A DNA stretch of 64,000 bases from Halorubrum persicum. Its GTDB lineage: Archaea > Halobacteriota > Halobacteria > Halobacteriales > Haloferacaceae. The stretch spans positions 1-64,000 of the forward strand of contig NZ_NHOA01000020.1 of assembly GCF_002727125.1 (NCBI RefSeq), read 5' to 3'. This document shows positions 2,599 through 56,421 of this stretch, one piece after another; the stretch's first letter is position 1, and each line of letters opens with the position of its first letter. Both the position numbers and the translations under genes were made by a program. The notes beneath the pieces were generated by a model that saw only the letters and a program-made list of their open reading frames with translations, was not told the DNA's origin and did not search any database.

Positions 2599-2613
2599 TC
2601 TGGCGTCGACTCC

Positions 2614-5455: not shown

Positions 5456-6165
5456 CGATACTCGACGTTGACGAGATTAACACGTACTACGGGAACAGCC
5501 ACGTCCTCCACGGGATCTCACTGGAGATAGACGAGGGCGAAGTGGTGACGCTGCTCGGGAGAAACGGCGCCGGAAAGACGACGACGATGCGCTCCATCGT
5601 CGGGGCGTCGCCGCCGCGGACCGGCTCGATCACCTACCGCGGCGAGGAGATCGCCGGCCTCTCCTCGGACGAGATCAACGAGCGGGGGATCTCGCTCGTC
5701 CCGGAGGACCGGCGGGTGTTCCCCACGCTGACCGTGCACGAGAATCTCCGGCTCGCGCACAACCTCGCGAGCGACCCGCGACCGGTCGCGGAGATGTACG
5801 AGCTGTTCCCGGCGCTCGAACCGCTGCGGAAGAACGACGGGCAGAACCTCAGCGGCGGCGAGCAGCAGATGGTGTCGGTCGCCCGCGCACTGGTGCAGGC
5901 GCCCGACGTGCTGCTCCTCGACGAGCCCACCGAGGGCCTCGCGCCCGTGATCGTCGACGACCTCCGAGAGATCGTTCAGACGGTCGTCGACGAGAACGTG
6001 ACAGTCCTGTTGACCGAACAGAACGTTGACTTCGCGTTCGATCTAGCCGAACGAGGGTATATCATGGACACCGGACAGATCGTGTTCGACGGCACCGTCG
6101 AGGAGATCCGCGACCGCGAGGACCTCCTCGAAACGTACCTCTCCGTGGGGACCGCGGATGCCTGA
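5452..6165 (+). CDS. livF: LivF-type ABC ATPase
   Basis: Second nucleotide-binding subunit of the importer, 237 residues. Walker A GRNGAGKTT, signature LSGGEQQMVSVARAL and Walker B VLLLDEPTEGLAP are intact. The N-terminal ILDVDEINTYYGNSHVLHG is typical of LivF. It overlaps the acyl-CoA synthetase downstream by eight bases, which ties transport to CoA activation of the imported acid. Confidence 0.93.
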   Translation: MTILDVDEINTYYGNSHVLHGISLEIDEGEVVTLLGRNGAGKTTTMRSIVGASPPRTGSITYRGEEIAGLSSDEINERGISLVPEDRRVFPTLTVHENLRLAHNLASDPRPVAEMYELFPALEPLRKNDGQNLSGGEQQMVSVARALVQAPDVLLLDEPTEGLAPVIVDDLREIVQTVVDENVTVLLTEQNVDFAFDLAERGYIMDTGQIVFDGTVEEIRDREDLLETYLSVGTADA

Positions 6166-11161: not shown

Positions 11162-11179
11162 GCCGGGAGCCCGCGCCGG

Positions 11180-11704
11180 TCACTCCTCGTCCTCCTGAAA
11201 CACCTCGAACAGCTCGGGGTCGGTCCCGAACTTGAGGACGTTCGTCACGACGGAGTTGCGGAGGTTGTTGACGAGCTCGCCGTACTCCTTGTAGAACTCG
11301 TGTATCCACTTCGACTCCTGCTCGCGGTCCTCGAACATCATGATCGTCTTCCACTGGTAGTCGCCGTCGGAGAGGAAGTACATGAACGTGTGCCGGCTCG
11401 ACCGGATATGCTCGAGGGCGTCCTCCCAGTGCTCGTCGAACCCCTTCGGATTGAACTGGAACTCGAAGAGCGAAAAGAAGAGATGCTCCTCGTTGGGGAC
11501 CAACGCCTCTCGGAACACGCCGTCGGCGCGCATCCGCCGGATCGACTCGTTGACCGTGACGTGAGAGACGTCGATGTCGTGTTCCTCGGCGAGGAGGTCG
11601 CGGAGCCCCCGCGAGGTGAGCTGGGGGTCCCGAGCGAGCTCCTGAAGGATGATCGTGTCCCGCTCGGAGAGGTTCCAGTCGGGACGCGGCTGTTTCTCGG
11701 GCAT
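11180..11704 (-). CDS. Winged-helix transcriptional regulator (Lrp/AsnC-like)
   Basis: 174-residue protein. Residues about 12-75 form a helix-turn-helix with wing (LSERDTIILQELARDPQLTS, then VSHVTVNESIRRMRADGVF). Residues about 80-160 form an alpha/beta sensor-like domain (FMYFLSDGDYQWKTIMMFED). It ends in an acidic EDEE. It converges on the acyl-CoA dehydrogenase and is the only regulator near the acid-catabolism genes, so it may control them, perhaps with an acyl-CoA or acid effector (inference). An AT-richer GATTACC about 30 bases upstream may be its TATA element. Confidence 0.8.
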   Translation of the reverse strand: MPEKQPRPDWNLSERDTIILQELARDPQLTSRGLRDLLAEEHDIDVSHVTVNESIRRMRADGVFREALVPNEEHLFFSLFEFQFNPKGFDEHWEDALEHIRSSRHTFMYFLSDGDYQWKTIMMFEDREQESKWIHEFYKEYGELVNNLRNSVVTNVLKFGTDPELFEVFQEDEE

Positions 11705-14172: not shown

Positions 14173-16517
14173 GGCCTCCCCTCCCCGCCCGTCGTGCGGG
14201 CGGCGCGCTCGACGGTCGCCGCCTCGTCGGTCCGGAGGTCCGCGAGGAACTCGAACAGCGCGTCGACGTCGTCGACCCCGTCGCGGACGAGGTACTCGAC
14301 GTACCGTCGCTTGGACGCGAACTCCGCCTCGACGGCGCCGACGTCGCGGTCGGTGTGGTCGGCGATGCGGGCGAGCGCGTGGAGGCGGCGCCCGTCGCCG
14401 GGCGCGGTGGGGGTCTCAGCGGCGTCGGAGTGAGACCCGTCACCGTCCGCGGACGGCGACCCACCCGGCGCGCCCGGGAACCGGAAGTCACCGTCGGCGT
14501 CGCGCCACGCGATCGTGTTGTAGTACACCGCCTCCGACCCCTTGTCGACGACGCCGGCACCGCCGTGTTTGGGGTTCCCCGTCGGGCTGTGCGCCGCCGC
14601 CGGATCGAGCGCCTCGTACTCAGCCTCGGAGAGGAGCTCGACCGCCCGAGAGACGTAGCGCTCGCCGTCGGCCTGCCGCGGGAAGACGACCAGGTCGACC
14701 TCGCGGAGGAGATACGCCGGGAGCCCGTGCTCGATCACGCGGTTGACGAGGGCCTCCACGTCCTCGGCGTGCGTGGTTCCGATCACGCCGTGGCCGGTGT
14801 TGAGCGTCTCGGCGAACGTCTCGAAGCTCGCGGGCGTGTTGATCTCGGCGATCACCTCCACGTCGGGGTTCAGGTAGTTCGCTTCGGCCATCAGCTCCGA
14901 CATGCTCACGGCCTTGTACGCGTCCTCGTGGTCGCGGGTCGTGAGCGACACCCCGGTCTCGTGCGGGAGCCTGACCTCGCGGGACCCCTCGTCGATCGAC
15001 ACCGGCCGGTCGTCGAACGGGATGAAGGGCGTGTGCGCGTTGAGCAGGGTCGTCTTCCCCACCCCGGTTGGCCCAGCGAAGAGGACGACGCCGCGGTGCT
15101 CGTACAGGAGCCACAACAGGGTGACCAGATCGGGGGAGAGCGTCCCGCGCTCGACCAGATCGACGGGGGTCAGGGCGTCCGCGCTCTGCTTCCGGATCGA
15201 GACGTGCGGGCCGCCCTCCGAGATGACGGGGAGCGCCACCGCACACCGGATCGTCTCGTCGACCCCGTCGACGTCGAGGTTCACCTTCGCCGACGGCGTG
15301 GAGGCGTTGAGCTCGGTGCCGTCGCGGGCGGCCAGGCCGGTGACGACGTTGACGAAGGCGGTCTCGTCGTCGAACGCGAGGTTGGTCGGGACGCGCCGCC
15401 CCGCGCCGCCAGCGTCGCCGAGGGCGTCGTCCGCGGACCCCCGCAGGATCGAGGTCCGGGGGACGACCTTCACGCGCTCGCCGACGCGGTTCGCCTCCAC
15501 GTCCTCCAGGTTCGGGTCTCGGATCGGGACCGTCAGGATGCCCTCGCCGACGAAGTCGCGGAGCACGTAGTACGCGAGGTCGTCGAGCCGGTCGCGGGCG
15601 TACCGCGAGTCGACCGGCGGGACCGCGAGCCCGCGGTCGGCCAGCGCGGACCGGACGCGATGGGTCGCCGCGCCGAGCCACGCGCGGGTGTTGCGCGCGG
15701 TGAGCCGCCGCGAGAGGAACCGGCGGGCGTGCTCGGCGACGAACGCCTCGCGGTCGTCGACGACGCCGTTGACGGTCGTCTCCCAGATCCGCTCTTTACA
15801 CTCCTCGATCAGCGCCTCGTCGCCGGGCAGGAGGTCGGGTTCGCGGACGGCGTACTTCGTCTCGAACGCGTCCGAGCCGAGCAGCCGCTCGCGGGCGACG
15901 ACCACCTCGACGGAGAGCCCAGCGAAGTCGACCGCGTACCGGGCGAGCCGCTCGGCGGCGACGCGCTCGACGTACTCCGCGTCGGCGTCGATCCCCGTCT
16001 CCAGCGGCGCGAACGTTTCGGTGTGGACGACCAGCTCGCGCTCGTCGCCCACGTCGGCCACCTCGATCCGGTCGTCGAGGGCGAGCGGCGTCACGTCGCC
16101 GAGCAGTCGGAGGTCGCGCAGCGCGTGGTAGTCGATCCGGCGGCGCGCCGCCGCGCTCGCGTCGACCAGCCGGTCGAGGGCGCGCTCGTACTTCGGCTCG
16201 AACCCCGACTCGGCCCGCTCGTTCACGCCGACCCGCGTGAGCGGGCGGCGGTGGCGCACCCCAGAGAAGTGGTCGCGGACGCGGTCGAGCGCGCGCTCGT
16301 CGGCCGCGGACAGCGGCGGCTCCCGAACGTCGTAGCCGAACCGACCGCCGTCCCGCTCGCGAACGGTCGCGACGACCCCGGGCTCCGATTCGTACTGCGC
16401 GCGAACCGCGGGCGCGTACCACGCCTCGGGGTCGTCCGGCGGCACCGGTGCCGGGACCGCACCGCTCGGATCGTCGTCCGCGTCGTCGACGATCCGGAGG
16501 GTCGGCCCGTCGCTCAC
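14169..16517 (-). CDS. Type II/IV secretion ATPase (PilB/TadA-like)
   Basis: 782-residue secretion ATPase with a long N-terminal part of about 400 residues and a RecA-like motor. Walker A is GPTGVGKTT near residue 480, followed by FDDRPVSIDEGSREVRL. The Walker B region is VEVIAEINTP and the His box is GVIGTTHAED. The unusual AEIN in place of GEVR is seen, from memory, in archaeal PilB-type proteins. A GTG at 16517 starts the gene. It powers the membrane platform encoded just downstream. Roughly 100 C-terminal residues after a Pro/Gly/Asp-rich linker form a separate helical domain. Confidence 0.92.
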   Translation of the reverse strand: MSDGPTLRIVDDADDDPSGAVPAPVPPDDPEAWYAPAVRAQYESEPGVVATVRERDGGRFGYDVREPPLSAADERALDRVRDHFSGVRHRRPLTRVGVNERAESGFEPKYERALDRLVDASAAARRRIDYHALRDLRLLGDVTPLALDDRIEVADVGDERELVVHTETFAPLETGIDADAEYVERVAAERLARYAVDFAGLSVEVVVARERLLGSDAFETKYAVREPDLLPGDEALIEECKERIWETTVNGVVDDREAFVAEHARRFLSRRLTARNTRAWLGAATHRVRSALADRGLAVPPVDSRYARDRLDDLAYYVLRDFVGEGILTVPIRDPNLEDVEANRVGERVKVVPRTSILRGSADDALGDAGGAGRRVPTNLAFDDETAFVNVVTGLAARDGTELNASTPSAKVNLDVDGVDETIRCAVALPVISEGGPHVSIRKQSADALTPVDLVERGTLSPDLVTLLWLLYEHRGVVLFAGPTGVGKTTLLNAHTPFIPFDDRPVSIDEGSREVRLPHETGVSLTTRDHEDAYKAVSMSELMAEANYLNPDVEVIAEINTPASFETFAETLNTGHGVIGTTHAEDVEALVNRVIEHGLPAYLLREVDLVVFPRQADGERYVSRAVELLSEAEYEALDPAAAHSPTGNPKHGGAGVVDKGSEAVYYNTIAWRDADGDFRFPGAPGGSPSADGDGSHSDAAETPTAPGDGRRLHALARIADHTDRDVGAVEAEFASKRRYVEYLVRDGVDDVDALFEFLADLRTDEAATVERAARTTGGEGRP

Positions 16518-44063: not shown

Positions 44064-45143
44064 TCAGAGCAAGTCGTCGAGCTCGTCGTTCTGGAACGCT
44101 TCGGCGGGGTCGGGCTGTCCCTCGGGCTCGTCGCGGACGGCCTGCCGTGCGCGTTCGAGGAACTCCTCGACGCGGCGCGAGCGCTCGACGCCGCCGAGGA
44201 GGACCAAGGCGGCCACCTGATCGGAGTCGAGCGGGAAGTCCCCGCCGCGCACCTGCATCGAGCCGGTCTCCTCTTGGAGCCACTTGCGCGCCTTCTCCGC
44301 GCCCTTCCGGGAGATCCGCTCGGGGTCGCCCGCGATGGCGACCAGGGCGGCGTCCGCCTCGGTCGCGTTGGGGAGCGACATCCCCGTCATCACCGCGCTC
44401 CGGACCGTGCTCATCACGGTCGTCACGTTCTCCTCGGGGTCCGCGGCGGCGGGCGCGGACGCGAACCCGGCCGCGGCCATGCCGCCGGCGCGCAGCGTGT
44501 TGATCACCTCGCTCGTGTCGACGACCGACTCGGCGACCCCCTCCACCGACTCGCCGGCCGCGAGGAGGAGCCCGACCCGCTTCGCCATCGAGGCGTTGAT
44601 CGCGGCGTAGCCGCCCTCGACCGACTCTCCCGAAGAGCGCCACGCGTCGTTGTCAAGCAGGAGTGTCGCGTCGGCCTCACGGACCAGCGTCTTCAGCGAC
44701 CGTCCGGCGTTCACCTGGTACATCGCCCCCTCGTCGCGGCCCGGGAGGATCCCGACCGCGTACACCGGGATGTCGTACACGCGGCTCAGCTCGCGGACGA
44801 GCACCGGCGCGCCGCCGGAACCGGTGCCGCCGCCGAGTCCCGCGACCACGAACAGCGCCTCCGCGGCGGCGTTCACCTTCGGCGCGAGCGCGTCGAGCAC
44901 CTCGACGGCGTCTTCCGTCATCACTTCGGCGCCGAGCTCGTTGTCGCCGCCGACGCCGTGCCCGTTTACCCGAGACTGACCGACGAGGACCGTGTCGAGC
45001 GGGAGGGGATTCAGGTCCGCCGACGCGGTGTTTACTGCGAGCGCGTCGAGCACCGCACCGTAGCCGGCGTCGGCGTCAAACTCAGCGAGCGCGGTCGTGA
45101 GCTTCCCGCCCGCCTGTCCGACGCCGAGGAGGACCGCTTTCAT
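44064..45143 (-). CDS. cetZ: CetZ-family tubulin-like cytoskeletal GTPase
   Basis: 359 residues. The N-terminal nucleotide-binding GVGQAGGKL, the tubulin signature GLGGGTGSGGAPVLVREL and the T7-type loop region of the C-terminal domain are present. An acidic tail ends DDELDDLL. CetZ proteins in Haloferax control cell shape and motility and are distinct from FtsZ. The ATG at 45143 is preferred; a minus-strand GGTATTACC about 25 bases upstream gives leaderless spacing. It is divergent from the pilus-like cluster across only 76 bases. Confidence 0.92.
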   Translation of the reverse strand: MKAVLLGVGQAGGKLTTALAEFDADAGYGAVLDALAVNTASADLNPLPLDTVLVGQSRVNGHGVGGDNELGAEVMTEDAVEVLDALAPKVNAAAEALFVVAGLGGGTGSGGAPVLVRELSRVYDIPVYAVGILPGRDEGAMYQVNAGRSLKTLVREADATLLLDNDAWRSSGESVEGGYAAINASMAKRVGLLLAAGESVEGVAESVVDTSEVINTLRAGGMAAAGFASAPAAADPEENVTTVMSTVRSAVMTGMSLPNATEADAALVAIAGDPERISRKGAEKARKWLQEETGSMQVRGGDFPLDSDQVAALVLLGGVERSRRVEEFLERARQAVRDEPEGQPDPAEAFQNDELDDLL

Positions 45144-45219: not shown

Positions 45220-45891
45220 GTGACCGACGACACGAGCGACCATGACCGACCGATCGTCGACGCCGACGAACCGTCCGAGACGGCGAGCGACGGGCGTTCG
45301 GAACAGCCACGGGCTTCCCACCGATCCGACCGCACGCCGGTCGAGACGGCCGAACGGGGCGACGACCGCGTCGAAGAGCGCCTCCGCGCGGTCGAGCGCG
45401 CGCTCACCGAAACCGACGACGCGGTCGCCGACGTGACCGACGAGGCGACCGCGACCGCTGAGCGAGCGGAGCTGTCGAAGCGACTCGACGACCTCGAGGG
45501 CCGCGTCGAGGAGTTGGAGGCGGCGACGCAGGCGATCAGAGGCTACGTCGGATCGGTCCGGGCGGTCAACCAGGCGGTCGAGCGCCGCGCCGATCTGGCG
45601 CTCGCGAAGGCGAGCGAGAACGGCGGCGTGGCCGCGGACGACGGAGCGACCGCGAGCGACGGCGAGGTCGCGAACGCGAACGAGGTCGGAGACACGACCG
45701 GCAGCGGCGGGCTCGACGGCGGCGTCCCCAGCGAGACCGATCTCGATACCGCCGTTCCAGCGGACCGGCGCCGAGGAGCGGGGGCGGGAGCGCCGGCAGA
45801 ACCGGGAGCCGATCGGCTCGAGACGGACGAGGAGAGCGCGGACGACTCGTGGGGCTCCGGCGCGCTGGATCGGCTCCGTGACTCGCTGTAA
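45220..45891 (+). CDS. Acidic coiled-coil protein opening the pilus-like cluster (DUF7310-like)
   Basis: 223 residues. A disordered acidic N-terminus is followed by a predicted coiled coil from about 48 to 125 (EERLRAVERALTETDD, LSKRLDDLEGRVEELEAATQ) and a long acidic, low-complexity C-terminus ending WGSGALDRLRDSL. It is soluble, with no signal. From memory it matches the haloarchaeal DUF7310 coiled-coil family. Its position ahead of a secretion ATPase suggests a cytoplasmic scaffold or ATPase partner (inference). The GTG start is fixed by the promoter at 45188. Confidence 0.8.
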   Translation: MTDDTSDHDRPIVDADEPSETASDGRSEQPRASHRSDRTPVETAERGDDRVEERLRAVERALTETDDAVADVTDEATATAERAELSKRLDDLEGRVEELEAATQAIRGYVGSVRAVNQAVERRADLALAKASENGGVAADDGATASDGEVANANEVGDTTGSGGLDGGVPSETDLDTAVPADRRRGAGAGAPAEPGADRLETDEESADDSWGSGALDRLRDSL

Positions 45892-45918
45892 CCGACTCCG
45901 TGTCGCGGAGGCGAGCCG

Positions 45919-46389
45919 GTGATTCGCGTCGTTCTCACGGTCCTCGTCGCCGTCGCGCTCCTCGCGGTCTCGATGCCGGCGCTGGAAGACGCCCGCGCCG
46001 TGACGACCGACGAACGGCTCGAGGCCGAGTCGGACCGCGTCGAGCGGGCGATCGGGGGGCTCGCATCCGGGTCGATGAGCGTCTCTGACCCGTCGCTGGC
46101 CGCCCGGACGACGGTGACGGTCCGTGCGCCGAGCGGCGTCGCTGCCGCGCGGATCGACCGGCTCGCGCTGGTCGAACCGGAACGGCCGGGGGACGAGTCC
46201 GGCGCCGCGCTTCGGTATCGGATCGGCGGCGGACGCGACCGGACGGTCCGGATCGCTCCCGAGGCGGCGGCCGCGAGTGTCGACGTCGTCGACGGGCCGA
46301 TCGCGCTCCGGACGCGCGGCGAGAGCCGTCTGGAGCTCCGACTCGTCGACGAGGACGGCCCGACTGTCGAGATCGCGCGACTCGAGTGA
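45919..46389 (+). CDS. Single-pass membrane protein of the pilus-like cluster (DUF7311-like)
   Basis: 156 residues. An N-terminal hydrophobic helix (VVLTVLVAVALLAVSMPALE) is followed by an extracellular-type domain of strands (TTVTVRAPSGVAAARIDRLA, IALRTRGESRLELRLVDEDG). The GTG start at 45919 lies 28 bases after the preceding stop. The layout resembles pseudopilin-like or assembly proteins. No catalytic motif is seen. From memory it fits a haloarchaeal DUF found only beside these secretion ATPases. Confidence 0.78.
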   Translation: MIRVVLTVLVAVALLAVSMPALEDARAVTTDERLEAESDRVERAIGGLASGSMSVSDPSLAARTTVTVRAPSGVAAARIDRLALVEPERPGDESGAALRYRIGGGRDRTVRIAPEAAAASVDVVDGPIALRTRGESRLELRLVDEDGPTVEIARLE

Positions 46390-46391
46390 GG

Positions 46392-46398
46392 GTTTATA
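46392..46398 (+). promoter_or_regulatory. Internal TATA element before the secretion ATPase
   Basis: TTTATAC about 27 bases before the ATG at 46423. It may give the ATPase-platform pair an extra transcript inside the cluster. Confidence 0.45.
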
Positions 46399-46422
46399 CG
46401 TGATACCGAGGGCACGCCCGCC

Positions 46423-48375
46423 ATGAGCTTCGATCTTCAGTCGCTGTCTCCGCTCGACGGCGACGCCGCGCCGCTCCGATCGCTTCCGTGGGGCGGCGGC
46501 GACGGTGACGACTGTCACTGCGATCCGTCGTTCAGAGAGCCGGCGGGGACCGGCGTCGAGGGGCGCGTGGTTCTCGCGGTCGACTCCGACGACTGCCCCG
46601 GACGCGGCGACCTCGCCGCGAGCCCCGACTGCCTCGCGACCGTCGTGGAGGCGCTGACCGAACGCGACGCCGACGTGGTCCGGACGCGTCACGCCGGTCG
46701 GGAGCGAACCTACGCCGGCCGGGCCGCGGCGTGTCTGATCGCCGCCGGGCGGTTCCGAGAACAGGTCGAGTTCCACGAGACGCGGCTCGCGGAGCGGGTG
46801 ACTCGCGAGCCGGTAGCGGCGGCGCGGGAGGCGAGCGGCCGTGAGGGGTCGCCGAAGCGAATCGCCGCGGAGACCGGGTTGATCGAGACCGTCGCGAACG
46901 CAGGGGAGGTCGACGACGTGCTCCGCGCACACTCCGGGCCGACGATCGCGGCGACGCGCGTCGCGTCGGCGCCGCCGTCGGACGCGGCGCTCGTGGACCG
47001 GTGGGAGATCGACACCGGCGCGACCGTGCGGCTGTACGAGGGTGCGGGGCCGCTGCGGACGTACCACCTCACCCCGCCGTCGACGCGGCTTGACGACGAG
47101 GCGGTCGAGCGCCTCGCCGCGGCCAAGGACCGACTCCTCGACGACCCGACCGGCGGCGACAGGGCGCCAGGTCGGGCGGTACGGTCGGTCGCGGCGGCGG
47201 GCGATCCGGTCTCGACGCTGGTCGACGTGCTCCGGCGGCACACCCGTGGATACGGCGCGTTCGAGCACGTGTTCGCCGACGACCGCGTGAGCGACGCGAC
47301 GCTCTCGGCCCCCGTCGAGGAGAACCCGCTTCGGGTCGTCGTCGACGGAGAGCGCTGTCGCACCAACGTCAGGCTGCCGCCCGAGGGCGCCGCGACGCTG
47401 GCGTCGCGACTTCGACGGACGAGCGGGCGGGGGTTCTCCCGCGCGAGTCCGACGCTCGACGCGACGATCGAGACCGAAGCCGGTCGCGTGCGGGTCGCGG
47501 CGACGACGGGCCCCGCCAGCGACGGCCTCTCATTCACGTTCCGTCGCGGCGACCCGGACGCGTGGACCCTCGCGCGGCTCGTGGACGTCGAGACGATCAC
47601 CCCGGCGGCCGCCGGGCTCCTTTCGGTGGCGGTCGAGCGGGGCGTAACCGGTCTCGTCGCCGGCGGCCGGGGCGCGGGGAAGACGACCGCGCTCGGGTCG
47701 CTGCTCTGGGAGCTGCCCACCGAGGCGAGATCGATACTGATCGAGGACACCCCGGAGCTGCCCGCCGAAGCGGTGGCCGCGGCCGGACGCGACGTCCAGC
47801 GACTCCGCGTGGGCGACGGCGCCGAACCGTCGCCGAGCGAGGCGGTTCGGACCGCGCTCCGGCTCGGCGGCGGCGCAATCGTCGTCGGCGAGGTCCGCGG
47901 CGAGGAGGCGGCGGCGTTGTACGAAGCGATGCGCGTCGGCGCCGCCGGCGAGGCGGTCCTCGGGACGATCCACGGCGAGGATCCCGGCGCGGTCCGAGAG
48001 CGTGTCGTCAGCGACCTCGGCGTCTCTCCCTCCTCGTTCGCCGCGACCGACCTGATCGTCGTGCTCGACGACCACCGCGTCCAGACGGTCGCAGAGGTCG
48101 TCGGACACGACGGAGACACCTCGTTCGAGCCGCTGTTCGAGCGAACCGGAGCGGGACTGACTCCCACCGGGCGGATCGATCGCGGAGAGAGCCGGCTCGT
48201 CGAATCGGTCGCCGAGACCGGCGAGTCGTACGCAGCCGTCCGCGAAGCCATCGATCGACGAGCGAACAGCATCGGGGAGGCAGCGAGAACCAGCCGGATC
48301 GCGCCGGAACGCTACGTCGGCCGCGACGGGACCGGTCGGCCGAGGGGCGGCGATGTCGCCGGTGGCGACCGATGA
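46423..48375 (+). CDS. Type II/IV secretion ATPase of the pilus-like cluster
   Basis: 650 residues. The RecA-like motor has Walker A AGGRGAGKTTALG near residue 414, ILIEDTPELP, Walker B IVVGEVRGEE near 485 and the His box VLGTIHGED. The N-terminal 70 residues carry four Cys (31, 33, 58, 70; CHC then DDCPG and PDC) that could bind a metal, unlike the ATPase at 14169. It powers filament assembly or secretion through the platform protein immediately downstream, whose ATG overlaps its stop by four bases. Confidence 0.92.
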   Translation: MSFDLQSLSPLDGDAAPLRSLPWGGGDGDDCHCDPSFREPAGTGVEGRVVLAVDSDDCPGRGDLAASPDCLATVVEALTERDADVVRTRHAGRERTYAGRAAACLIAAGRFREQVEFHETRLAERVTREPVAAAREASGREGSPKRIAAETGLIETVANAGEVDDVLRAHSGPTIAATRVASAPPSDAALVDRWEIDTGATVRLYEGAGPLRTYHLTPPSTRLDDEAVERLAAAKDRLLDDPTGGDRAPGRAVRSVAAAGDPVSTLVDVLRRHTRGYGAFEHVFADDRVSDATLSAPVEENPLRVVVDGERCRTNVRLPPEGAATLASRLRRTSGRGFSRASPTLDATIETEAGRVRVAATTGPASDGLSFTFRRGDPDAWTLARLVDVETITPAAAGLLSVAVERGVTGLVAGGRGAGKTTALGSLLWELPTEARSILIEDTPELPAEAVAAAGRDVQRLRVGDGAEPSPSEAVRTALRLGGGAIVVGEVRGEEAAALYEAMRVGAAGEAVLGTIHGEDPGAVRERVVSDLGVSPSSFAATDLIVVLDDHRVQTVAEVVGHDGDTSFEPLFERTGAGLTPTGRIDRGESRLVESVAETGESYAAVREAIDRRANSIGEAARTSRIAPERYVGRDGTGRPRGGDVAGGDR

Positions 48376-50189
48376 CCGGGCCAGACGGCGATCGTGATCG
48401 GGTGCCGCGACGCAGTCCGGGGGACCGCGAGGAGGGATCGGCGGAGCTCCGTCGGGCCGTGGCGTTCCTCGGGTGGGAGGCGACGAGCTCCCGGGTGATC
48501 GAAGCGGGATACCGGGCGGGAGTGGGAGTCGGCCTCGCCTGCGCCGTCGTCGTCGCGTTCGTCTCCGGACCCGTTCCGGGACTGCTGTTCGGGCTGGCGG
48601 GCGGTCTGGGTACCGTGCACGCCGTCCATCGCGGACCGGTGTGGCTCGCCTCGCTCCGCCGGACCAGAGCCTTGGGGGCGGCGCCCGGGCTCGTCGGGCG
48701 CCTCGTGTTGCGGATGCGGTTGGATCCGTCGACCGAGCGCGCCGTTCGGTTCGCCGCGCGGACCGGCGACGGGCCGCTCGCCGAGGGGCTCGCTCGACGC
48801 GAGCGATCGAACGCCGACGGGCCGACCAGTGGACTCCGGGAGTTCGCCCGCGAGTGGCAGCCATGGTTTCCGGCGATCGATCGGGCGGCGGCGCTCGTCC
48901 GGACGGCGGCGTCGGCGCCGCCAGAGCGTCGAGGTCGGTGTCTGGACCGCGCGCTCGACGCGACGATCGCCGGAACGACCGATCGGCTCGCCGCCTTCGT
49001 CGGCGAGGTCCGGGGGCCCGTCTCGGCGCTGTACGCCTTCGGAGTGTTGCTCCCCCTCGTGCTCATTGCCCTCCTTCCGGCGGCCGCCGCGGCTGGCGTC
49101 CCGATCGGTCCCGGGATCGTCGCGGCGCTGTACCTCGGCGTGTTACCCGCGGGACTGCTCGCGGCCTCGGCGTGGCTCCTCTCCCGGCGTCCGGTCGCGT
49201 TCGCGCCGCCGAGCATCGGTGGAGACCACCCGGATGTCCCGGAGAGGGGGATCCACGCCGCGGTCGCGGGGGCGGGAATCGGGGCCGTCGCCGCCGCCGT
49301 CGCGGCGCGGGTCGCCGCCGGATGGGCCGCGCCGGTCGCAGGGGTCGGCGTTGGCACCGGCGTGGCGCTGTTCGTCGCCGTCCGTCGTCGCAGAGCGGTG
49401 CTGTCGAACGTCCGCGCCGTTGAGCGCGCTCTTCCGGACGCGATGACGGTGATCGGCGGCGACGTGGCCGAGGGCGTCGCCGTCGAGACCGCGATTGCGC
49501 ACGCCGGCGAGCGGCTCGACGGCGCGACCGGCGAGCTGTTCGAACTCGCCGGGCGACGGAGCGAGACGCTCCGCGTCGGCGTCCGAGAGGCGTTTCTCGG
49601 CCGCGGCGGCCCGGCGGTTCCGGTGCCGTCGCCCCGAGTGAAGGGCGCGGTCGCGCTGCTTTCCGTCGCGGCGCGAGAGGGGCGTCCGGCGGGCGACGTG
49701 TTGCTCGAACTCGCCGACCAGCTTGAGGACCTCCGGGAACTCGAGAGCGACGCGCGGCGACAGCTCGCGACGGTGACGGGAACTCTGACGAACACCGCCG
49801 CGGTGTTCGCGCCGCTCGTCGGCGGAGCGACGGTCGCGCTCGCCACCGGTATCGACACCGTCGACGCCGGGGGACTGGGCGCCGGAGCGGCGGCCGGGGC
49901 GGACGCTCTCAGTACGGGCGGCGTCGACGGCTCCGGTGCCCTCGGCGCCGACACGGGCGGAGGCGGTGCAGGGTCGAAGTCGGGTACCGGCGGTGCGCTC
50001 TCGGTACCGGTGCTCGGGCAGATCGTCGGCGCGTACGTGTTGATCCTCGCGGCGCTCCTCACCGGGCTGGCGACCGGTCTCGAACGGGGGTTCGACCGGA
50101 CGCTCGTCGCCTATCGGGTCGGGATCGCGCTCCCGACCGCGACCGCGACGTACCTCGTCGCGTTCCTCGGCGCCGGGGTGCTGCTGTAG
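48372..50189 (+). CDS. Secretion membrane platform protein (TadC-like, two F domains)
   Basis: 605-residue polytopic protein. Hydrophobic clusters (VGVGLACAVVVAFVSGPVPG, ALYAFGVLLPLVLIALLPAA, TYLVAFLGAGVLL) flank cytoplasmic helical domains. The second F domain holds LPDAMTVIGGDVAEGVAVET and AVALLSVAAREGRPAGDVLL, the usual family pattern. A Gly/Ala-rich stretch of about 50 residues before the last membrane segments is unusual. The first domain (about 60-230) is degenerate compared with the second. It partners the ATPase upstream. Confidence 0.88.
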   Translation: MTGPDGDRDRVPRRSPGDREEGSAELRRAVAFLGWEATSSRVIEAGYRAGVGVGLACAVVVAFVSGPVPGLLFGLAGGLGTVHAVHRGPVWLASLRRTRALGAAPGLVGRLVLRMRLDPSTERAVRFAARTGDGPLAEGLARRERSNADGPTSGLREFAREWQPWFPAIDRAAALVRTAASAPPERRGRCLDRALDATIAGTTDRLAAFVGEVRGPVSALYAFGVLLPLVLIALLPAAAAAGVPIGPGIVAALYLGVLPAGLLAASAWLLSRRPVAFAPPSIGGDHPDVPERGIHAAVAGAGIGAVAAAVAARVAAGWAAPVAGVGVGTGVALFVAVRRRRAVLSNVRAVERALPDAMTVIGGDVAEGVAVETAIAHAGERLDGATGELFELAGRRSETLRVGVREAFLGRGGPAVPVPSPRVKGAVALLSVAAREGRPAGDVLLELADQLEDLRELESDARRQLATVTGTLTNTAAVFAPLVGGATVALATGIDTVDAGGLGAGAAAGADALSTGGVDGSGALGADTGGGGAGSKSGTGGALSVPVLGQIVGAYVLILAALLTGLATGLERGFDRTLVAYRVGIALPTATATYLVAFLGAGVLL

Positions 50190-50224
50190 CGAAACGGAAA
50201 GTGCGCCGAGGCCTGCGGACGAGC

Positions 50225-50254
50225 GTTTAAGTGCGAAGCCGCGGCCAGCCGGCC
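50225..50254 (+). promoter_or_regulatory. Pilus-cluster promoter 2: TATA plus inverted repeat
   Basis: GTTTAAGT (50225-50232) with GCGGCC-AGCC-GGCC beginning 16 bases from its first base (50241-50254), just before the GTG at 50256. Sequence and spacing match the element at 45188. Confidence 0.65.
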
Positions 50255-50255
50255 C

Positions 50256-50744
50256 GTGTTCGAGACCCATCTCGACGCCACGTACGCGTGGCTCGGCCTG
50301 GCGCTAGTGAGCGTCGCGGCTGTCGGCGTCGTCGCCGCGCTCCCTGCCTCTCCGCCGCCGGACGCGAGCGGCGTCGCGCACACGATCGATTCGGTCGCCG
50401 CCGGCGAACACCCCGCGACGGCGGAGCACGGACTCGCCGCGGACCGCATTCGCCTCACCGACCGTTCGGTTGCGCTCGGCGGCGAAGGCGGGGCCGCGCG
50501 GGCGCCGCTGCGCGCACCGCGGGTAACCCCGGTTCCGACGGAGCGACACGGAGCCTCGGACGCCGACGGGCTCCGGCGAGTGCTCGGCGGCGTCCCGCCC
50601 GACGCCGCGTTCGACGATCCCGAGGCCTTCGCGGCCGCCGCCGAACGTGCCCGGGCGAGAGACGACGAGTGGCGTCCGGCACCGGATCGGCTGACGGTGA
50701 GACGCGTTCACTACGGAGGAGTACGTGTCACGCTCGTCGGGTGA
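50256..50744 (+). CDS. Membrane-anchored cluster protein (DUF7283-like)
   Basis: 162 residues. An N-terminal hydrophobic helix (WLGLALVSVAAVGVVAALPA) follows 11 residues, then an extracellular-type region with TIDSVAAGEHPATAEHGLAA and a strand-rich C-terminus (RLTVRRVHYGGVRVTLVG). The GTG start is set by the shared promoter element. It overlaps the next gene by 20 bases. From memory it belongs to the haloarchaeal DUF7283 family, of unknown function but always with this ATPase and platform pair. Confidence 0.78.
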   Translation: MFETHLDATYAWLGLALVSVAAVGVVAALPASPPPDASGVAHTIDSVAAGEHPATAEHGLAADRIRLTDRSVALGGEGGAARAPLRAPRVTPVPTERHGASDADGLRRVLGGVPPDAAFDDPEAFAAAAERARARDDEWRPAPDRLTVRRVHYGGVRVTLVG

Positions 50745-51153
50745 GGGGTTCCTGCGCGGGGACCGTGCCGCAGTCGAACCGCTCGCCGCGCTCGTCGCCG
50801 TGCTCGCGGTGGGCGCGGCGCTGGGAGTGTACACTGTCGCACTCGACGACGCGGCGCCGGATCGGGAGCGCCCGACGGCCGAAACGACGCTCGATCGGGT
50901 CGAGCCGGTGGTGACGAGGGGCGGTATCGTCGAGCCGGAACGGCTGCGCGGTGTCGATGAGTTCCGATACGCCGCGACCGTCACGATCGAGGCCGACGGG
51001 AAGACGTGGCGGGTCCGGTCGGGTGACAGGGCCCCGGCGCCGACAACCACCCGGCGCACGGACGCGGTCGCGGTCGCCGAGCGGACGGTAACGGTCGGCG
51101 TCGGACCGGGGCAGAACGACCGCGGAACCCTTCGGGCGGTGGTGTACCGATGA
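50725..51153 (+). CDS. Pilin-like protein (DUF7285-like)
   Basis: 142 residues. Residues about 10-40 read GDRAAVEPLAALVAVLAVGA: a short charged leader, an R-A-A-V site matching the archaeal prepilin peptidase pattern (basic or acidic residue, Gly/Ala, then two small or hydrophobic residues), and a hydrophobic helix. A beta-rich domain follows (FRYAATVTIEADGKTWRVRS). This is the layout of a type IV pilin or Tad pseudopilin. It overlaps both neighbours, so it is translated with them. Confidence 0.8.
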   Translation: MSRSSGEGFLRGDRAAVEPLAALVAVLAVGAALGVYTVALDDAAPDRERPTAETTLDRVEPVVTRGGIVEPERLRGVDEFRYAATVTIEADGKTWRVRSGDRAPAPTTTRRTDAVAVAERTVTVGVGPGQNDRGTLRAVVYR

Positions 51154-51689
51154 CGAGCACCGTGCTCGACATGACGGTGCTGCTCCTGTGCGTCTCCGCG
51201 AGCGTCGTCGCGCTCGGTGCGGTCGGGAACGACCCCGCGGCGGCGGGACCTCGAGCCACCGAAGTCGCCGATCTGGTCGCCACGGAGACGGTGACGGTGA
51301 CGTACGCGTCGGACGAGGCGCCGAACGGGACGCGAACGATTCACGCGACACGCGCAGAGCTGGTGGCGCTGGTGGCGACCGAACGCGGAGGAGAAAGCGA
51401 AGAGCGCGCGCCGAGAGGGACGTTCGAATCCGAAGCGCTAGCGGCCGTCAAGCGAGGCATCGGTCCGCGAACGCGGATCGACGCGGAGGGAGGTGCGGGA
51501 GCGTCAGACGGCGCCGCGAGCGAAAGCGAATCGGGGGACCTGTCGACCGCGTCCGTATCGTCGGCGTCGATCGCCGTCGGGAGCGAACCGCCGCGGAGCG
51601 CTGACGTCACGGTCGCGGTGATCGCGCATCCGGCACCGAACGGCTCGGGAGAGACCGAAACAGTCAGGATCGTGATCAGGAGGTGGTGA
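51150..51689 (+). CDS. Membrane-anchored cluster protein (DUF7284-like)
   Basis: 179 residues. The N-terminus is almost immediately hydrophobic (TVLDMTVLLLCVSASVVALG), followed by a strand (TVTVTYASDEAPNGTRTIHA), a helical segment with acidic linker, and a C-terminal strand pair (ADVTVAVIAHPAPNG, TVRIVIRRW). The short leader resembles TadE/TadF-type pseudopilins. The ATG overlaps the preceding stop by four bases. Function is unknown; it is probably part of the extracellular complex. Confidence 0.78.
   Translation: MTSTVLDMTVLLLCVSASVVALGAVGNDPAAAGPRATEVADLVATETVTVTYASDEAPNGTRTIHATRAELVALVATERGGESEERAPRGTFESEALAAVKRGIGPRTRIDAEGGAGASDGAASESESGDLSTASVSSASIAVGSEPPRSADVTVAVIAHPAPNGSGETETVRIVIRRW
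51679..51683 (+). promoter_or_regulatory. Shine-Dalgarno deciding the start of the giant protein gene
   Basis: GGAGG, eight bases before the GTG at 51692 and too close to the GTGs at 51683 and 51686. A strong SD is expected because this gene starts inside an operon. Confidence 0.5.
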
Positions 51690-51691
51690 GC

Positions 51692-54600
51692 GTGGGAACG
51701 CGATCGGGCGAAACAGACGCCCCCGGATCCGGTCCGCGATGCCGATCCTTCACCGTCGACGAGCGCGCACGGGTCCCGTTCGCGCTGATCGGCGTGCTCC
51801 TCCTCGTAACGAGTTCGACGTACGCCGCGGGGATCGCCGATCAGGGGCTCATCAGCGAGGACCGAAGCGTGGAGCGTGCCATCGAGCGCGTCGACGCCGA
51901 TTCGACCGCCGCGCTCAGGGCCGCGGCCCGTCGGGCGGCTCACGACGCGGCCGCGGAGCCGGTGACGCGGGCGCCAGACGAGACGACCGCTGGCCCGGGA
52001 GACGGACACGCCACGACCGCGGTCAGAAACGAGTCCCCCTTCGAAGACGCGTTCCGGATCCGGCTCGCGATCGCCGGTGCCGAGGCGCTGTCGGCCGTCG
52101 ACGCCGAAGTCGGCGGCGTGAGGGCGTCGGCGTCGCTTCCGGCGGTAGACGATCCCGAGGAGTTGGCGGCGGCGAGAGGCCGGATCCGCGTCGAGTCCGC
52201 AGCGAACGGAACCGCGACGCGCGTGACGTTCGAGGACGTGGAGACGACCGCGACGCGGGGCGGGCGAACGATCGTCGAGCGAACGGAAGACCGGACGGTC
52301 GTCGTCGCCGTACCGACGCTCGCGGCCCACGAGCGGACGGCGCAGTTCGAGAGGCGGCTCGATCGGGGGCCGACCGAGGGGCCGGGGTTGGGGCGTCAGC
52401 TCACCGCAAGCCTCTACCCGATGGCGTGGGCGCGCGGATACGGCCAGTTCGCGGGGGCGCCGGTCGAGAACGTCCTCGCGAACCGCCACGTGGAGCTGTC
52501 GACGAACGCGGGGATCGTCCGGACGCAGCGGGACGTGTTCGGCGCGAGCGATCCGAACGCACGCGGTGGGGTGGCACGGGCGACGGCGCGAACCGGAGTC
52601 ACCGACCTGCTCAAACCGACCGGCGTCGACGAGGGATCGTGGACGGAGGCCGTGCTCAGCGCCCCGACACCGGGAGAGAGCGACGGCGCGGGAAGGAGCC
52701 GCGGCTCAGCCGAGAGCGGCGATCTGGCGCCGCAACCGAGCGAGGACGCCGCGTTCGAACCGCCGGGCGATCCGACAGACGAGCGAACGTCGGTCCCGGT
52801 CGGCCGCGCGGCCGACGAGGGGGCGACCCGCGTCTACGACGATCTGGACGCGATCATCGAGGACGCCTACCGGGTCGAAGCGAGCGTCGAAACGTCGACG
52901 GCGCTGGTCGTCGACGGCGGGCGTCCGACGCCACCGTCACCCGCTGCACCGGAGTCCACGACGACCGGCGGCTGGGACCGCGTCGACCTGACACGGACGG
53001 AACGGTCGCCGGTCGTCTCCGGGAGCGGCGTGCCGGAGGGCGTTCCGTCGGGGACGGTCGACCCCGGCGAGCGCGTCTCGTTCGGCGTCGCGACCCGCGA
53101 GGCGACCGTCGAGCGCGTCGCGATCGCTGAATGGGAGCGTGTGACGATCCAGCGTGGGCCAAACGGAACCGTCGTCGACGAGCAGGTCCACCGGACGACC
53201 ACGCGCGACGCGGTGACCGACCGCTACCGGGTGCGAGTGTCGGTGTCGGGGGAACACGCTCCGACCGACGGGGCGCCCGACCGGGCCGCCGCGACGTTCG
53301 GCGCGGGCGACACCACCGACGGACCGGACCTGCGCGACGCGCCGTCGGCCGCCCGTGCCGATCTCGGTGTCGACACCGACGGCGGCGTCGACCGGATCGC
53401 CGAAGAGGCGGTCAGCCGCGGGGCGGTCCGCGATTCGACGACCGTCGTCGGCTCCCGATCGGCCGGCGATCGGGACGCCGTCGCGGCCGAGGTGGCCGCG
53501 CTCGCGAGCGACGTTCGCGACATCGAGACCGAGGCGTCGATGGAGAACGCGGCGTTCGGTGAGGCGGAGCCGTACGCCGACCTCGCTCGCGCGCTCCGCG
53601 ACCGACGCAGTGCTCTCGTCGACGCGCCGGCGACGTACGACGGCGCCGTTGATCGGGCGGGGACCGCCGCCCGCGCCGCGTACCTCGACGCCGTGATCGA
53701 CGAGCTCGAGGACGCTGCCGACGACCGCGAACGCGCGACGAACGGGTTTCTCGACCGCGTGAACGGCGCGTTCGACGGCCCCGACGTGGGCGACGCGCTC
53801 GCCAGCCGCGAGGCCGCCCGCGACCCCGGAACGTACGCAGTCGGCGCGGACGGTCCGGGTGGGGAAGTGACGTTCGCGCCGCGCGGGTCGCCGGGATACC
53901 TTCCGCGGACGACGGTCGACGGAGAGTCGGTCAGCGGCGTGAACGGAACGACGACGCGTCCGCTCGCGGTTCGCAACGTGAACTACGTCACGGTGCCGTA
54001 CGGGGAGGTGTCGAGCGGCGTCGTCGACCGGATTCTCGGCACCGAGAACACGGTGCGGGTCGGGACCGCCGGTCGGTCGCTCCGCCTGGCGAACGAGGCG
54101 CTGGCGGTCGGCGACGACCCCGATCTGCGGGCGGATCGGGACGCGCTCGCCCGACAGATAGACGGATCGCTGGCCGAGGTGGACAGGGAGCTCGAAGCGG
54201 CGATCCGGGTCCGGACCTCGCTGTCGCGCGACGAGCGGCGCAGGGCGCTCGACGAGGCCGCAGCGAGCTACGGGACGACGGGCGAACGCGCCGTCGCCGT
54301 CGGCAACGGCTCGTACCCGGAACGGGTCGCCGCCGAGGCCGCGAGCGTCGGGTCGCTGTCGCCGGCGGCCGAGGAGGCGCTCGCCGCGAACCTCCGCGTC
54401 GCGACTCGGACCGCAGCCGGGAGAGACGCGGTTCGGGTCCCGACCCGGTTCGTCGACGACACGACGAGCGGCGCGCGAGTGCTACTCAGAGACCGGCTGG
54501 AGAAGGCGATCGAGCGAGAGGCGGCGCGAGCGGGCGAGGCGGCGGCCGGAACGGTGAGCGAGAAGGCGGTCGAGGAGCTGGGCGAGGAGTGGTCGCTGAA

Positions 54601-54994
54601 GCCTGCGCGGACCGTCGGCGCGGGGCTTCCGGTCGCGCCCGTTCCGGGGTACTGGGTGACGACCGTGAACGCCTGGCGGGTGCAGGTCCGCGGAGAGTAT
54701 CCGCGCTTCGCGCTCCGTGCCGACGTGGGAACGCCCGGCGAGCGCTTCGCGTACGTCCGGAGCGAGGGCGACGTGACCGTCGAGGTCGGCGGCGAAACTG
54801 TGCAGCTCGGCGAGACGGACCCGGTCGCGTTCGAGACCGAAACGGTGGTGGCCGTCGCGGTCCCGGCCGGTCCGCCCGGCGTCGGCGACGTTGACGGAAC
54901 TCGCGACGAGCGATCCAAGGGGTGGCCGTGCCCCGGCGCGATGGGGGAGCCGTCACCGAAAGGCGACGGGGGCGGGAGCTGTGCGGAGCCGTGA
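51692..54994 (+). CDS. Giant pilin-like surface protein (DUF7286-like)
   Basis: About 1,100 residues. After about 25 residues, ERARVPFALIGVLLLVTSST gives a short leader, an R-A-R-V prepilin-peptidase-like site and one hydrophobic helix; the rest looks extracellular. Helical regions (DADSTAALRAAARRAAHDAA, DEAAASYGTTGERAVAV) alternate with strands, and the C-terminal 150 residues include WVTTVNAWRVQVRGEYPRFA. A GGAGG-type Shine-Dalgarno at 51679-51683 favours the GTG at 51692 over two nearer GTGs (51683, 51686). It could be a tip, adhesin or TadG-like component (inference). Confidence 0.82.
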   Translation: MGTRSGETDAPGSGPRCRSFTVDERARVPFALIGVLLLVTSSTYAAGIADQGLISEDRSVERAIERVDADSTAALRAAARRAAHDAAAEPVTRAPDETTAGPGDGHATTAVRNESPFEDAFRIRLAIAGAEALSAVDAEVGGVRASASLPAVDDPEELAAARGRIRVESAANGTATRVTFEDVETTATRGGRTIVERTEDRTVVVAVPTLAAHERTAQFERRLDRGPTEGPGLGRQLTASLYPMAWARGYGQFAGAPVENVLANRHVELSTNAGIVRTQRDVFGASDPNARGGVARATARTGVTDLLKPTGVDEGSWTEAVLSAPTPGESDGAGRSRGSAESGDLAPQPSEDAAFEPPGDPTDERTSVPVGRAADEGATRVYDDLDAIIEDAYRVEASVETSTALVVDGGRPTPPSPAAPESTTTGGWDRVDLTRTERSPVVSGSGVPEGVPSGTVDPGERVSFGVATREATVERVAIAEWERVTIQRGPNGTVVDEQVHRTTTRDAVTDRYRVRVSVSGEHAPTDGAPDRAAATFGAGDTTDGPDLRDAPSAARADLGVDTDGGVDRIAEEAVSRGAVRDSTTVVGSRSAGDRDAVAAEVAALASDVRDIETEASMENAAFGEAEPYADLARALRDRRSALVDAPATYDGAVDRAGTAARAAYLDAVIDELEDAADDRERATNGFLDRVNGAFDGPDVGDALASREAARDPGTYAVGADGPGGEVTFAPRGSPGYLPRTTVDGESVSGVNGTTTRPLAVRNVNYVTVPYGEVSSGVVDRILGTENTVRVGTAGRSLRLANEALAVGDDPDLRADRDALARQIDGSLAEVDRELEAAIRVRTSLSRDERRRALDEAAASYGTTGERAVAVGNGSYPERVAAEAASVGSLSPAAEEALAANLRVATRTAAGRDAVRVPTRFVDDTTSGARVLLRDRLEKAIEREAARAGEAAAGTVSEKAVEELGEEWSLKPARTVGAGLPVAPVPGYWVTTVNAWRVQVRGEYPRFALRADVGTPGERFAYVRSEGDVTVEVGGETVQLGETDPVAFETETVVAVAVPAGPPGVGDVDGTRDERSKGWPCPGAMGEPSPKGDGGGSCAEP

Positions 54995-55036: not shown

Positions 55037-55486
55037 ATGTTTCACGAGGTCGTCGTCGACGGCACGACGGGAGCCGAGAGCGGCGCGGACGAGGTGACCG
55101 CGGCAGCCCTGCTCGCGTCGTTCGAGACGCTGGTGAGCGAGGCGGCCGCGGAGGCCGAACGAGAAGCGCTCGCCGAGGAGACGGGACTCGACGAACCGAC
55201 CCTCGACGCCGCCCTCGGCGGTGACGTGGCGGAGATCCGGTTCGAAGACGCGGCCGCGATCGTCGCCCTTCCGACCGATCGCGACGGCGACGCAGTCGTC
55301 GCCGAGGTCCGCGACCACCTGCTGATGGGGATGGCGACCGCGGTGCTCGACGTCGACTCGATCGCCGCCGCGATCGACGCGGATCTCACGGGACAGGAGG
55401 TCCAGCAGGCGCTCGAGGGGCGCGCCGCGATGACGCTCGGCCAGCTGGCGGAGATCATGGCGGTCATCGAACAGCGGAAGCCATGA
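55037..55486 (+). CDS. Conserved haloarchaeal hypothetical protein (DUF5791-like)
   Basis: 149 acidic residues, soluble and mostly helical (LLASFETLVSEAAAEAEREA, LGQLAEIMAVIEQRKP), with VRDHLLMGMATAVLDVDSIA in the second half. It may belong to the haloarchaeal DUF5791 family, from memory. It starts 42 bases after the pilus-like cluster and overlaps the epimerase gene by four bases, so it is more likely linked to that gene. Confidence 0.75.
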   Translation: MFHEVVVDGTTGAESGADEVTAAALLASFETLVSEAAAEAEREALAEETGLDEPTLDAALGGDVAEIRFEDAAAIVALPTDRDGDAVVAEVRDHLLMGMATAVLDVDSIAAAIDADLTGQEVQQALEGRAAMTLGQLAEIMAVIEQRKP

Positions 55487-56421
55487 GAGTCGTCGTCGTC
55501 GGCTGCGGCTACGTCGGCCTCGAACTCGCCCGACAGCTCGCGGAGCGGGGACACGCCGTGACGGGGGTTCGGCGATCCGACGCCGGGATAGACGCGATCG
55601 GATCGGTCGGGGAGCGCATAGACGGCGAGGGGGACGCGGAAGGCGAGGGGCGGGTGGACGCCGTCCGCGCGGACGCGACGGACGCGGCGTCGCTCGACGC
55701 GCTGCCCGACGCCGACGCGGTCGTGTTCGCGGCCAGCTCCGGCGGGCGTGGCGCCGCGGCCGCCCGCGAGGTGTACGTCGACGGCCTCCGAAACGTGATC
55801 GAGGCGTACGGCTCGCGCGGGTCTGCTCCGGACAGACTCGTCTACACGTCGTCGACGGGCGTGTACGGCGACCACGGCGGCGCGTGGGTCGACGAGGAGA
55901 CACCGATCGAACCCACGACCGAGAAGACCCGCGTCCTCGCCGAGGCGGAGCGGACCGCGCTGGAGACGGCGGCCGAGTTCGGGATCGACGGGACGGTCGC
56001 GCGCTTCGCGGGGCTGTACGGACCCGACCGCTACCGGCTCGACCGCTACCTCGACGGCCCGGTCACGGCCGGCTACCTCAACATGGTCCACCGCGACGAC
56101 GCCGCCGGGGCGGTCCGATACCTCCTCGAAACCGACCGCGCACGCGGTGACGCGGTTCTGGTCGTCGACGACGAGCCGGCCGACAAACACGCGTTCGCCG
56201 ACTGGCTGGCCGACGCGTGCGGCGTCGCGCGGCCCGAAAAGCGATCGAAGAGCGAACGGATCGCCGCCGGGGAACTCTCCGAAGCGGCCGAACGGCGGAT
56301 CCGGACGAGCAAGCGCTGCTCGAACGACCGCCTGCGGGCGCTCGGTTACGAGTTGGCCTATCCGACCTTCAGAGAGGGGTACTGCGACGCGGTGCGGGCG
56401 TTCCGAACGGCGGACGAGTGA
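55483..56421 (+). CDS. NAD-dependent epimerase/dehydratase (extended SDR, YeeZ-like)
   Basis: 312 residues. The N-terminal Rossmann motif VVVGCGYVGLELARQLAERG, DAVVFAASSGGRG, YTSSTGVYGD with the catalytic Ser/Thr, and VARFAGLYGPDRYRLDR are typical of atypical extended SDRs. The usual YxxxK is not obvious: the expected region reads TTEKTRVLAEAE, so Tyr appears to be missing and catalysis is uncertain. It overlaps the preceding hypothetical gene. Confidence 0.85.
   Translation: MRVVVVGCGYVGLELARQLAERGHAVTGVRRSDAGIDAIGSVGERIDGEGDAEGEGRVDAVRADATDAASLDALPDADAVVFAASSGGRGAAAAREVYVDGLRNVIEAYGSRGSAPDRLVYTSSTGVYGDHGGAWVDEETPIEPTTEKTRVLAEAERTALETAAEFGIDGTVARFAGLYGPDRYRLDRYLDGPVTAGYLNMVHRDDAAGAVRYLLETDRARGDAVLVVDDEPADKHAFADWLADACGVARPEKRSKSERIAAGELSEAAERRIRTSKRCSNDRLRALGYELAYPTFREGYCDAVRAFRTADE

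Follow-up and report, generated by a model that had tools for sequence, protein, structure and literature searches.

The window analysed here is a 64,000-nucleotide stretch of Halorubrum persicum DNA (assembly GCF_002727125.1, contig NZ_NHOA01000020.1, positions 1–64,000), in which eight genes, named A to H below, form an operon that combines a secretion ATPase (C) and a membrane platform (D) with a coiled-coil protein (A) and five further proteins (B, E, F, G and H), each with a single N-terminal membrane helix (Table 1). An earlier reading of the locus, made from the letters and open reading frames alone (the sequence-only reading), had described a machine of nine linked genes. This was a miscount, since eight coding sequences (CDS) fill the interval. 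Its description of overlapping or closely spaced genes is borne out by overlaps of 4–20 bp and gaps of 27–66 bp. The coiled-coil, single-pass, ATPase and TadC-like parts that it listed were recovered as Pfam DUF7310, DUF7311 and T2SSE and, for D, from position and methanogen relatives, and the two proteins in which it saw prepilin-like sites are F and H.

Protein A has no predicted membrane helix, and its C-terminus ends in a conserved motif, G-x-x-x-R-L-R-x-x-L, in a comparison of C-termini from 41 loci. Protein D shows about 8–9 hydrophobic peaks, and its T2SSF match (18 bits) lies under the Pfam cut-off; we regard it as the platform because of its position and because relatives scoring 300–345 bits sit beside the ATPase in methanogens. 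The Pfam match of G spans positions 1–121 of the 278 in the DUF7284 profile. G is 179 amino acids long here and likewise short in some related lineages, compared to about 260–300 amino acids in most haloarchaea. In our interpretation, the operon probably encodes a motor of the type IV pilus family with a five-pilin complex and the giant protein H, of the type known as subclade 4F.

Table 1. Genes of the operon and its conserved neighbours in the window.
Feature	Position	Strand	Basis
Operon A–H, eight CDS	45220-54994	+	Open reading frame layout
A, DUF7310 coiled-coil protein	45220..45891	+	Pfam 1e-27
B, DUF7311	45919..46389	+	Pfam 9e-39
C, PilB/VirB11-type secretion ATPase	46423..48375	+	T2SSE 6e-18
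D, TadC/PilC-like membrane platform	48372..50189	+	T2SSF 0.003, weak
E, DUF7283	50256..50744	+	Pfam 4e-53
F, DUF7285, prepilin-like	50725..51153	+	Pfam 1e-25
G, DUF7284, short form	51150..51689	+	Pfam 5e-11
H, DUF7286, 1103 amino acids, prepilin-like N-terminus	51683..54994	+	Pfam E=0, 1089 bits
CetZ tubulin-family gene, divergent upstream neighbour, published cetZ2 position	44064..45143	-	Pfam CetZ_C 1e-61, Tubulin 8e-27
DUF5791 protein, conserved downstream neighbour	55037..55486	+	Pfam 4e-41; in 39/40 loci
NAD-dependent epimerase/dehydratase, conserved downstream neighbour	55483..56421	+	Family match, locus comparison

Conservation was assessed in two samples of haloarchaeal loci. In the first, 40 loci from many genera and eight families were fetched with H alone. 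All 40 kept the order and orientation of A to H, which confirms the conservation of synteny across haloarchaea that the sequence-only reading had put forward as a check. The DUF5791 gene followed in 39 of these loci, and a divergent CetZ gene lay ahead in 33. The second sample consisted of 80 loci fetched with the ATPase alone. Here D was present in all 80, A, B and E in 74 each, F and G in 73, H in 70 and CetZ in 52. Missing genes were mostly due to short contigs, and a few absences were real; two Halorussus loci were split, and two Halovenus loci lacked E to H. The order kept throughout the first sample and the co-occurrence in the second place this gene set far beyond chance.

Some individual loci depart from the common layout (comparison loci and genomes are cited by their L and G numbers). 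In L126 and L138, both from metagenome-assembled genomes of Halovenus, and in L122, the ATPase and TadC are surrounded by flanking DNA without E to H. L187 (G046, family f4) and L188 (G033, family f7) have split operons, in which A–E or A-D-E remain beside the ATPase and H sits at another position on the chromosome.

That motor and accessory set cooperate is best supported by genomes in which they are not linked. Outside the haloarchaea, 242 genomes of the phylum were surveyed; 35 of them have DUF7286 and 36 the orthologous ATPase. Both are found in 33 genomes, DUF7286 only in 2, the ATPase only in 3 and neither in 204 (Fisher p = 8e-35, a value that is overstated because the genomes are related). 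Methanosarcina acetivorans, a named control, also has DUF7286. The underlying profile search for the ATPase covered 295 genomes and gave about 720–945 bits for haloarchaea with the operon, 289–450 bits for one methanogen set and at most 180 bits for other ATPases. In the methanogens, DUF7286 and the orthologous ATPase sit at separate loci, and in most of these loci the ATPase has its own adjacent TadC. Gene linkage cannot account for this co-occurrence, which argues that the motor and the accessory set work together. The sequence-only reading would have been undermined by accessory proteins that do not accompany the ATPase in other genomes; with 33 genomes holding both and 5 holding one, this was not the case. 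The phylum-wide co-occurrence turns a list of domains of unknown function (DUFs) into a defined core of ATPase, platform and five pilins. This core is open to testing as a whole, and methanogens offer a second place to test it.

The methanogen sets match the haloarchaeal proteins one to one. Methanocella-like loci (L157, L158, L160) carry the genes in the order B', E', F', G', H', and the ATPase was not found within the 17–19 kb fetched around them. Methanosarcina-like loci (L161, L165) have B'E'F'G' and H' close to each other, on opposite strands. Profile comparison with hhalign gave a probability of 100% for H–H' (E 2e-50), 97.7% for G–G' (E 2e-12), 96.6% for B–B' (E 5e-10), 96.5% for F–F' (E 1e-9) and 58.8% for E–E' (E 9e-5), and every other haloarchaeal/methanogen pair scored below 5%. 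It follows from these matches that the haloarchaeal ATPase and platform are flanked by B and E, members of a set that is separate from them elsewhere. The earlier assignment of the accessory proteins to haloarchaeal DUF families thus held for the families and failed for their restriction to haloarchaea: by profile comparison, families B, E, F, G and H extend beyond the haloarchaea, which is new here. A coiled-coil protein beside B' was considered as a counterpart of A, but the comparison reached only 1.4%, and this candidate is a positional lead only.

Several other features accompany the methanogen loci. A small secreted protein, K, follows directly after H, sometimes in several copies (for instance L157 12370-12984, L161 4424-5041 and L162 15059-18990), and partial repeats of H occur in L162 and L171. 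A Methanocella-type ATPase locus (L178 11847-13917) contains a HerA-like ATPase and an A24 prepilin peptidase; its sister locus L177 has a DUF7311-like pilin at the same place (13492-14094).

The ATPase itself is intact. It has an undamaged Walker A motif (GGRGAGKTT), and the four cysteines of its N-terminal domain (C31, C33, C58, C70) as well as the motor motifs are invariant in 31 sequences. Cysteine-rich N-termini are also visible in the methanogen orthologues. The closest relatives, with 85–90% identity, belong to Halorubrum; among solved structures, 2oap (an archaeal type II secretion ATPase), CpaF and FlaI are nearest. In the ATPase tree, where none of the accessions carried a 4F or 4C label, the haloarchaeal and methanogen ATPases form one clade (support 100/99), apart from four paralogues of the genome to which the window belongs. 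The intact motor motifs and the protein families support the proposal of the sequence-only reading that ATPase, TadC and prepilin-like proteins make up a machine of the type IV pilus/Tad family.

Within this family, the ATPase and platform belong to the same superfamily as those of the bacterial Tad pilus (CpaF/TadA, TadB/C, TadE-G), and CpaF is among the closest solved structures. In contrast to the Tad pilus, the locus lacks TadZ, a secretin and a Flp pilin. ATPase C scored 107.6 bits against the TadA NCBIfam model (cut-off 373) and 74.9 bits against the FlaI model (cut-off 550). The family search at the locus revealed no Flp pilin or secretin, and no ArlH or archaellin. By these membership criteria, the locus classifies as neither a bacterial Tad system nor an archaellum.

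Instead, its features agree with those of the type IV pilus subclade 4F, for which a Cys-rich N-terminal ATPase domain, a coiled-coil protein unique to haloarchaea and an FtsZ-like gene in haloarchaeal loci have been described (Makarova, Koonin & Albers 2016, PMC4858521). The locus combines a VirB11/PilB ATPase and TadC with a Cys-rich ATPase N-terminus, a coiled-coil protein and an FtsZ-family neighbour. According to the description of 4F in PMC4858521, the two also share the cytoplasmic nature of the coiled-coil protein (arCOG07564 there), a large surface-type protein and ATPase relatives in Methanocella-type methanogens. Class III prepilin sites, as in type IV filaments, are present in F and H here and in G of other families. 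Judged by gene content and motifs, the locus is the haloarchaeal form of subclade 4F, a type IV pilus system that had already been catalogued. The description of 4F in that source mentions neither that the five-protein set is conserved in methanogens at a distance from the ATPase nor that leaders have been lost, as discussed below. The 4F features are in conflict with the assignment of H. volcanii PilB2 to subclade 4C (Legerme & Pohlschroder 2019, PMC6491452).

The gene neighbourhood has been mapped as well. Brown & Duggin (2023, PMC9856176) place cetZ2 next to the pilB2/C2 regulon, with arCOG04674 and an epimerase in the same region. The same layout is found here, where start codons of CetZ and A are separated by 76 bp; the sequence-only reading had missed the CetZ gene. 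The arCOG04674 and sugar epimerase genes fit our DUF5791 and epimerase genes. Judged by position, the DUF5791 gene is probably arCOG04674, and the epimerase is probably arCOG03095 of the same study. Both are neighbours that stand outside the machine proper.

A likely counterpart of the locus is pil-2 of Hbt. salinarum R1, as indicated by arCOG01818 and by the naming in the papers. Losensky (2014, PMC4292770) reports seven co-transcribed open reading frames in pil-2, with three FlaFind prepilins, PilB2 (arCOG01818) and PilC2, and an 8.5-fold upregulation of pilB2 in adherent cells; by blastn the system was confined to haloarchaea. The pil-2 locus measures 6.9 kb; in the present operon, the stretch from C to H measures 8.6 kb. 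The account of pil-2 in that paper includes no pilB2 mutant. The term 'uncharacterised' in the sequence-only reading is hence only partly right; the system has been classified (PMC4858521), mapped by way of cetZ2 (PMC9856176) and, in its likely counterpart, studied (PMC4292770). A literature search by the DUF numbers of the families returned no paper. Guessed H. volcanii locus tags led only to HVO_0739, which is apparently unrelated.

The N-termini of the five single-helix proteins are informative. F carries the site DRA/AVEPLAALVAVLAV (RA/AVEPLAALVAV; the slash marks the site) and H the site ERA/RVPFALIGVLLLV. In haloarchaea, [KR][GA] stands at the site in 103 of 114 F and 105 of 111 H sequences. 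In methanogen B', E', F', G' and H', Gly or Ala precedes the hydrophobic segment in nearly all sequences, usually after D, E, R or K (for instance B' EKG/ADFLG, E' DRG/VDYGVL, F' DERG/VTEPYTDL, G' ERG/FSSSIDA and H' DDRA/RVPF). These proportions bear on the idea that the prepilin-like sites are coincidental and that genes E to H of the operon merely code for unrelated envelope proteins. In its favour, Arg and Ala are abundant in high-GC proteins, and a strict consensus fails for B, for E and for H with its Arg at +1. Yet sites kept at such frequencies in F and H, and in nearly all B'–H' of methanogens, make a coincidence extremely unlikely.

Haloarchaeal B and E differ from their methanogen relatives. 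By alignment, on which all predicted start sites rest, B begins with M-I-R-x-V-L-A or similar in all 39 models and E with M-[FLI]-[DE] or similar in all 41 (MFE... here), both without a leader. G reads M/TSTVLDM here, with the initiator Met exactly at the R-[AG]/ position of its relatives. It keeps R-[AG]/ in Haloarcula, Halorientalis, Natronomonas, Halosimplex, Halostella, Halorussus and others, and has ATG or GTG at -1, followed by T or N, in Halorubrum, Halopenitus, Haloplanus, Haloprofundus, Halobellus, Halogeometricum, Haloferax and Halolamina. Possibly, B and E of all sampled haloarchaea, and G of family f1 (Haloferacaceae), exchanged the leader for an initiator Met at or near -1, so that they would enter the machine independently of prepilin peptidase, on which F and H would still depend; we put this forward tentatively, as somewhat doubtful. 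In a minority of haloarchaea, [KR][GA] lies immediately ahead of the start of B, which we ascribe to GC-rich sequence; in places an upstream start may be hidden. If real, the loss of leaders would break the rule that every subunit of a type IV filament machine passes through prepilin peptidase, and it would warn against PibD dependence as a criterion of membership. The sequence-only reading had proposed that accessory proteins not processed by PibD would count against the machine. This would mislead, since the set includes proteins that have no leader, namely B, E and, in this lineage, G.

The proposed mechanism may be outlined as follows. ATPase C, whose relatives are hexamers, would drive the platform D, which would insert or extract pilin-like subunits. 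B, E, F, G and H would form a conserved five-protein core of minor pilins (pseudopilins). F and H would be cut by prepilin peptidase, of which the genome has one copy; B, E and (in f1) G may be inserted uncut. Other filaments of type IV pili and type II secretion systems are capped by large minor pilins, to which H is comparable in principle, and H would likely be the cap or the surface-exposed working end. The major pilin is probably encoded outside the operon. A may act as a cytoplasmic coiled-coil adaptor that ties the ATPase to the membrane or to a neighbouring CetZ filament, but any such contact with membrane, ATPase or CetZ is a guess. The most likely output would be a short surface filament or pseudopilus for adhesion.

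Predicted structures add detail for F and H. The F orthologue of L041 (136 amino acids; AlphaFold pLDDT, the predicted local distance difference test, 88) has a membrane helix (16-43), two further helices and a four-stranded sheet. Its top matches in the PDB were ribosomal S3-type proteins, none at E<=0.001, and we regard them as chance. The model of H (pLDDT 78) is mixed and multi-domain, and a sequence search with H gave nothing significant.

Several observations weigh against a pilus-type machine of subclade 4F. The fold of F is unlike the classical beta-sandwich of archaeal pilins, and H matches no solved fold (nothing below E 0.5 in the PDB fold search). The Arg at +1 of the H site is unusual for substrates of prepilin peptidase. 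The operon contains no multi-copy major pilin, and stand-alone pilins elsewhere were not searched. The homology of E and E' is only moderate (59%), that of A and its positional counterpart A' is unsupported, and the p-value of the co-occurrence ignores the kinship of the genomes. The orthology with pil-2 rests on arCOG numbers shared in the papers, and pilC2 of Hbt. salinarum is interrupted by an in-frame stop (PMC4292770, in its account of pil-2).

The lack of an obvious major pilin would also fit a pseudopilus like that of type II secretion. In this reading, folded proteins would be driven across the S-layer by a short piston built from the five pilin-like proteins, and there would be no lasting surface filament. 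Five low-copy pilin-like genes, one of them very large, recall the GspG-K sets, and H is the only large exported protein. However, true pili have minor-pilin sets that look alike, no conserved gene for a secreted substrate lies beside the haloarchaeal operon, and protein K of the methanogens has no counterpart in it. On balance we consider such a piston unlikely.

The position of CetZ suggests another alternative, a machine of envelope and cytoskeleton in which CetZ filaments position or gate the ATPase and platform through A, for cell shape or contact sensing, with B and E as membrane stators instead of filament subunits. ArlF and ArlG are stators in archaella, and haloarchaeal B and E lack a prepilin leader. 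The recurrence of CetZ at the loci given above speaks for it; FtsZ-like genes at type IV pilus loci of Thermococci (noted in PMC4858521 and PMC9856176) point the same way, as does a tubulin-family gene about 4.4 kb from the orthologous ATPase in the methanogen-side L182. Yet many lineages have no CetZ beside the operon, methanogen loci other than L182 have none either, and the machine persists there without it. The DUF5791 and epimerase genes are equally conserved neighbours, and adjacency of CetZ may hence mean only co-regulation or shared history. We consider this explanation unlikely, but the CetZ link of a 4F pilus machine still offers a connection from an archaeal tubulin to a surface machine that can be put to the test. 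In L182 (G487, 1928-5651), the Tubulin/FtsZ-family gene (2.7e-10) is followed by a gene for a 772-amino-acid coiled-coil protein, near the orthologous ATPase; this could possibly be an independent tubulin link.

DUF7286 is found in 224 of 292 haloarchaeal genomes and in 58 of 77 genera, and the 4F/pilB2 machine is thus common in haloarchaea. Its patchy presence, and flanking genes described in PMC9856176 as the same with and without the operon, accord with the proposal in Brown & Duggin (2023) of a mobile and perhaps recent acquisition in some haloarchaea. This rival concerns origin and not function. In contrast, our data favour an old locus with losses. The spread over genera and the relatives in methanogens argue against recent gain. 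The ATPase tree largely follows families (f1 and f2 are each one clade; 12 label changes against a minimum of 10), and no copy was found among 72,556 plasmid records. Furthermore, in L174 (G012, 10380-11318) a 313-amino-acid frame between CetZ and DUF5791 consists of the beginning of A joined in frame to the final part of H, a scar left where the operon was deleted. We hold a recent gain to be very unlikely.

Elsewhere in the window, on the reverse strand, positions 12205-16517 hold a second pair of secretion ATPase and T2SSF platform (782 and 655 amino acids), and the genome contains six T2SSE matches in total.

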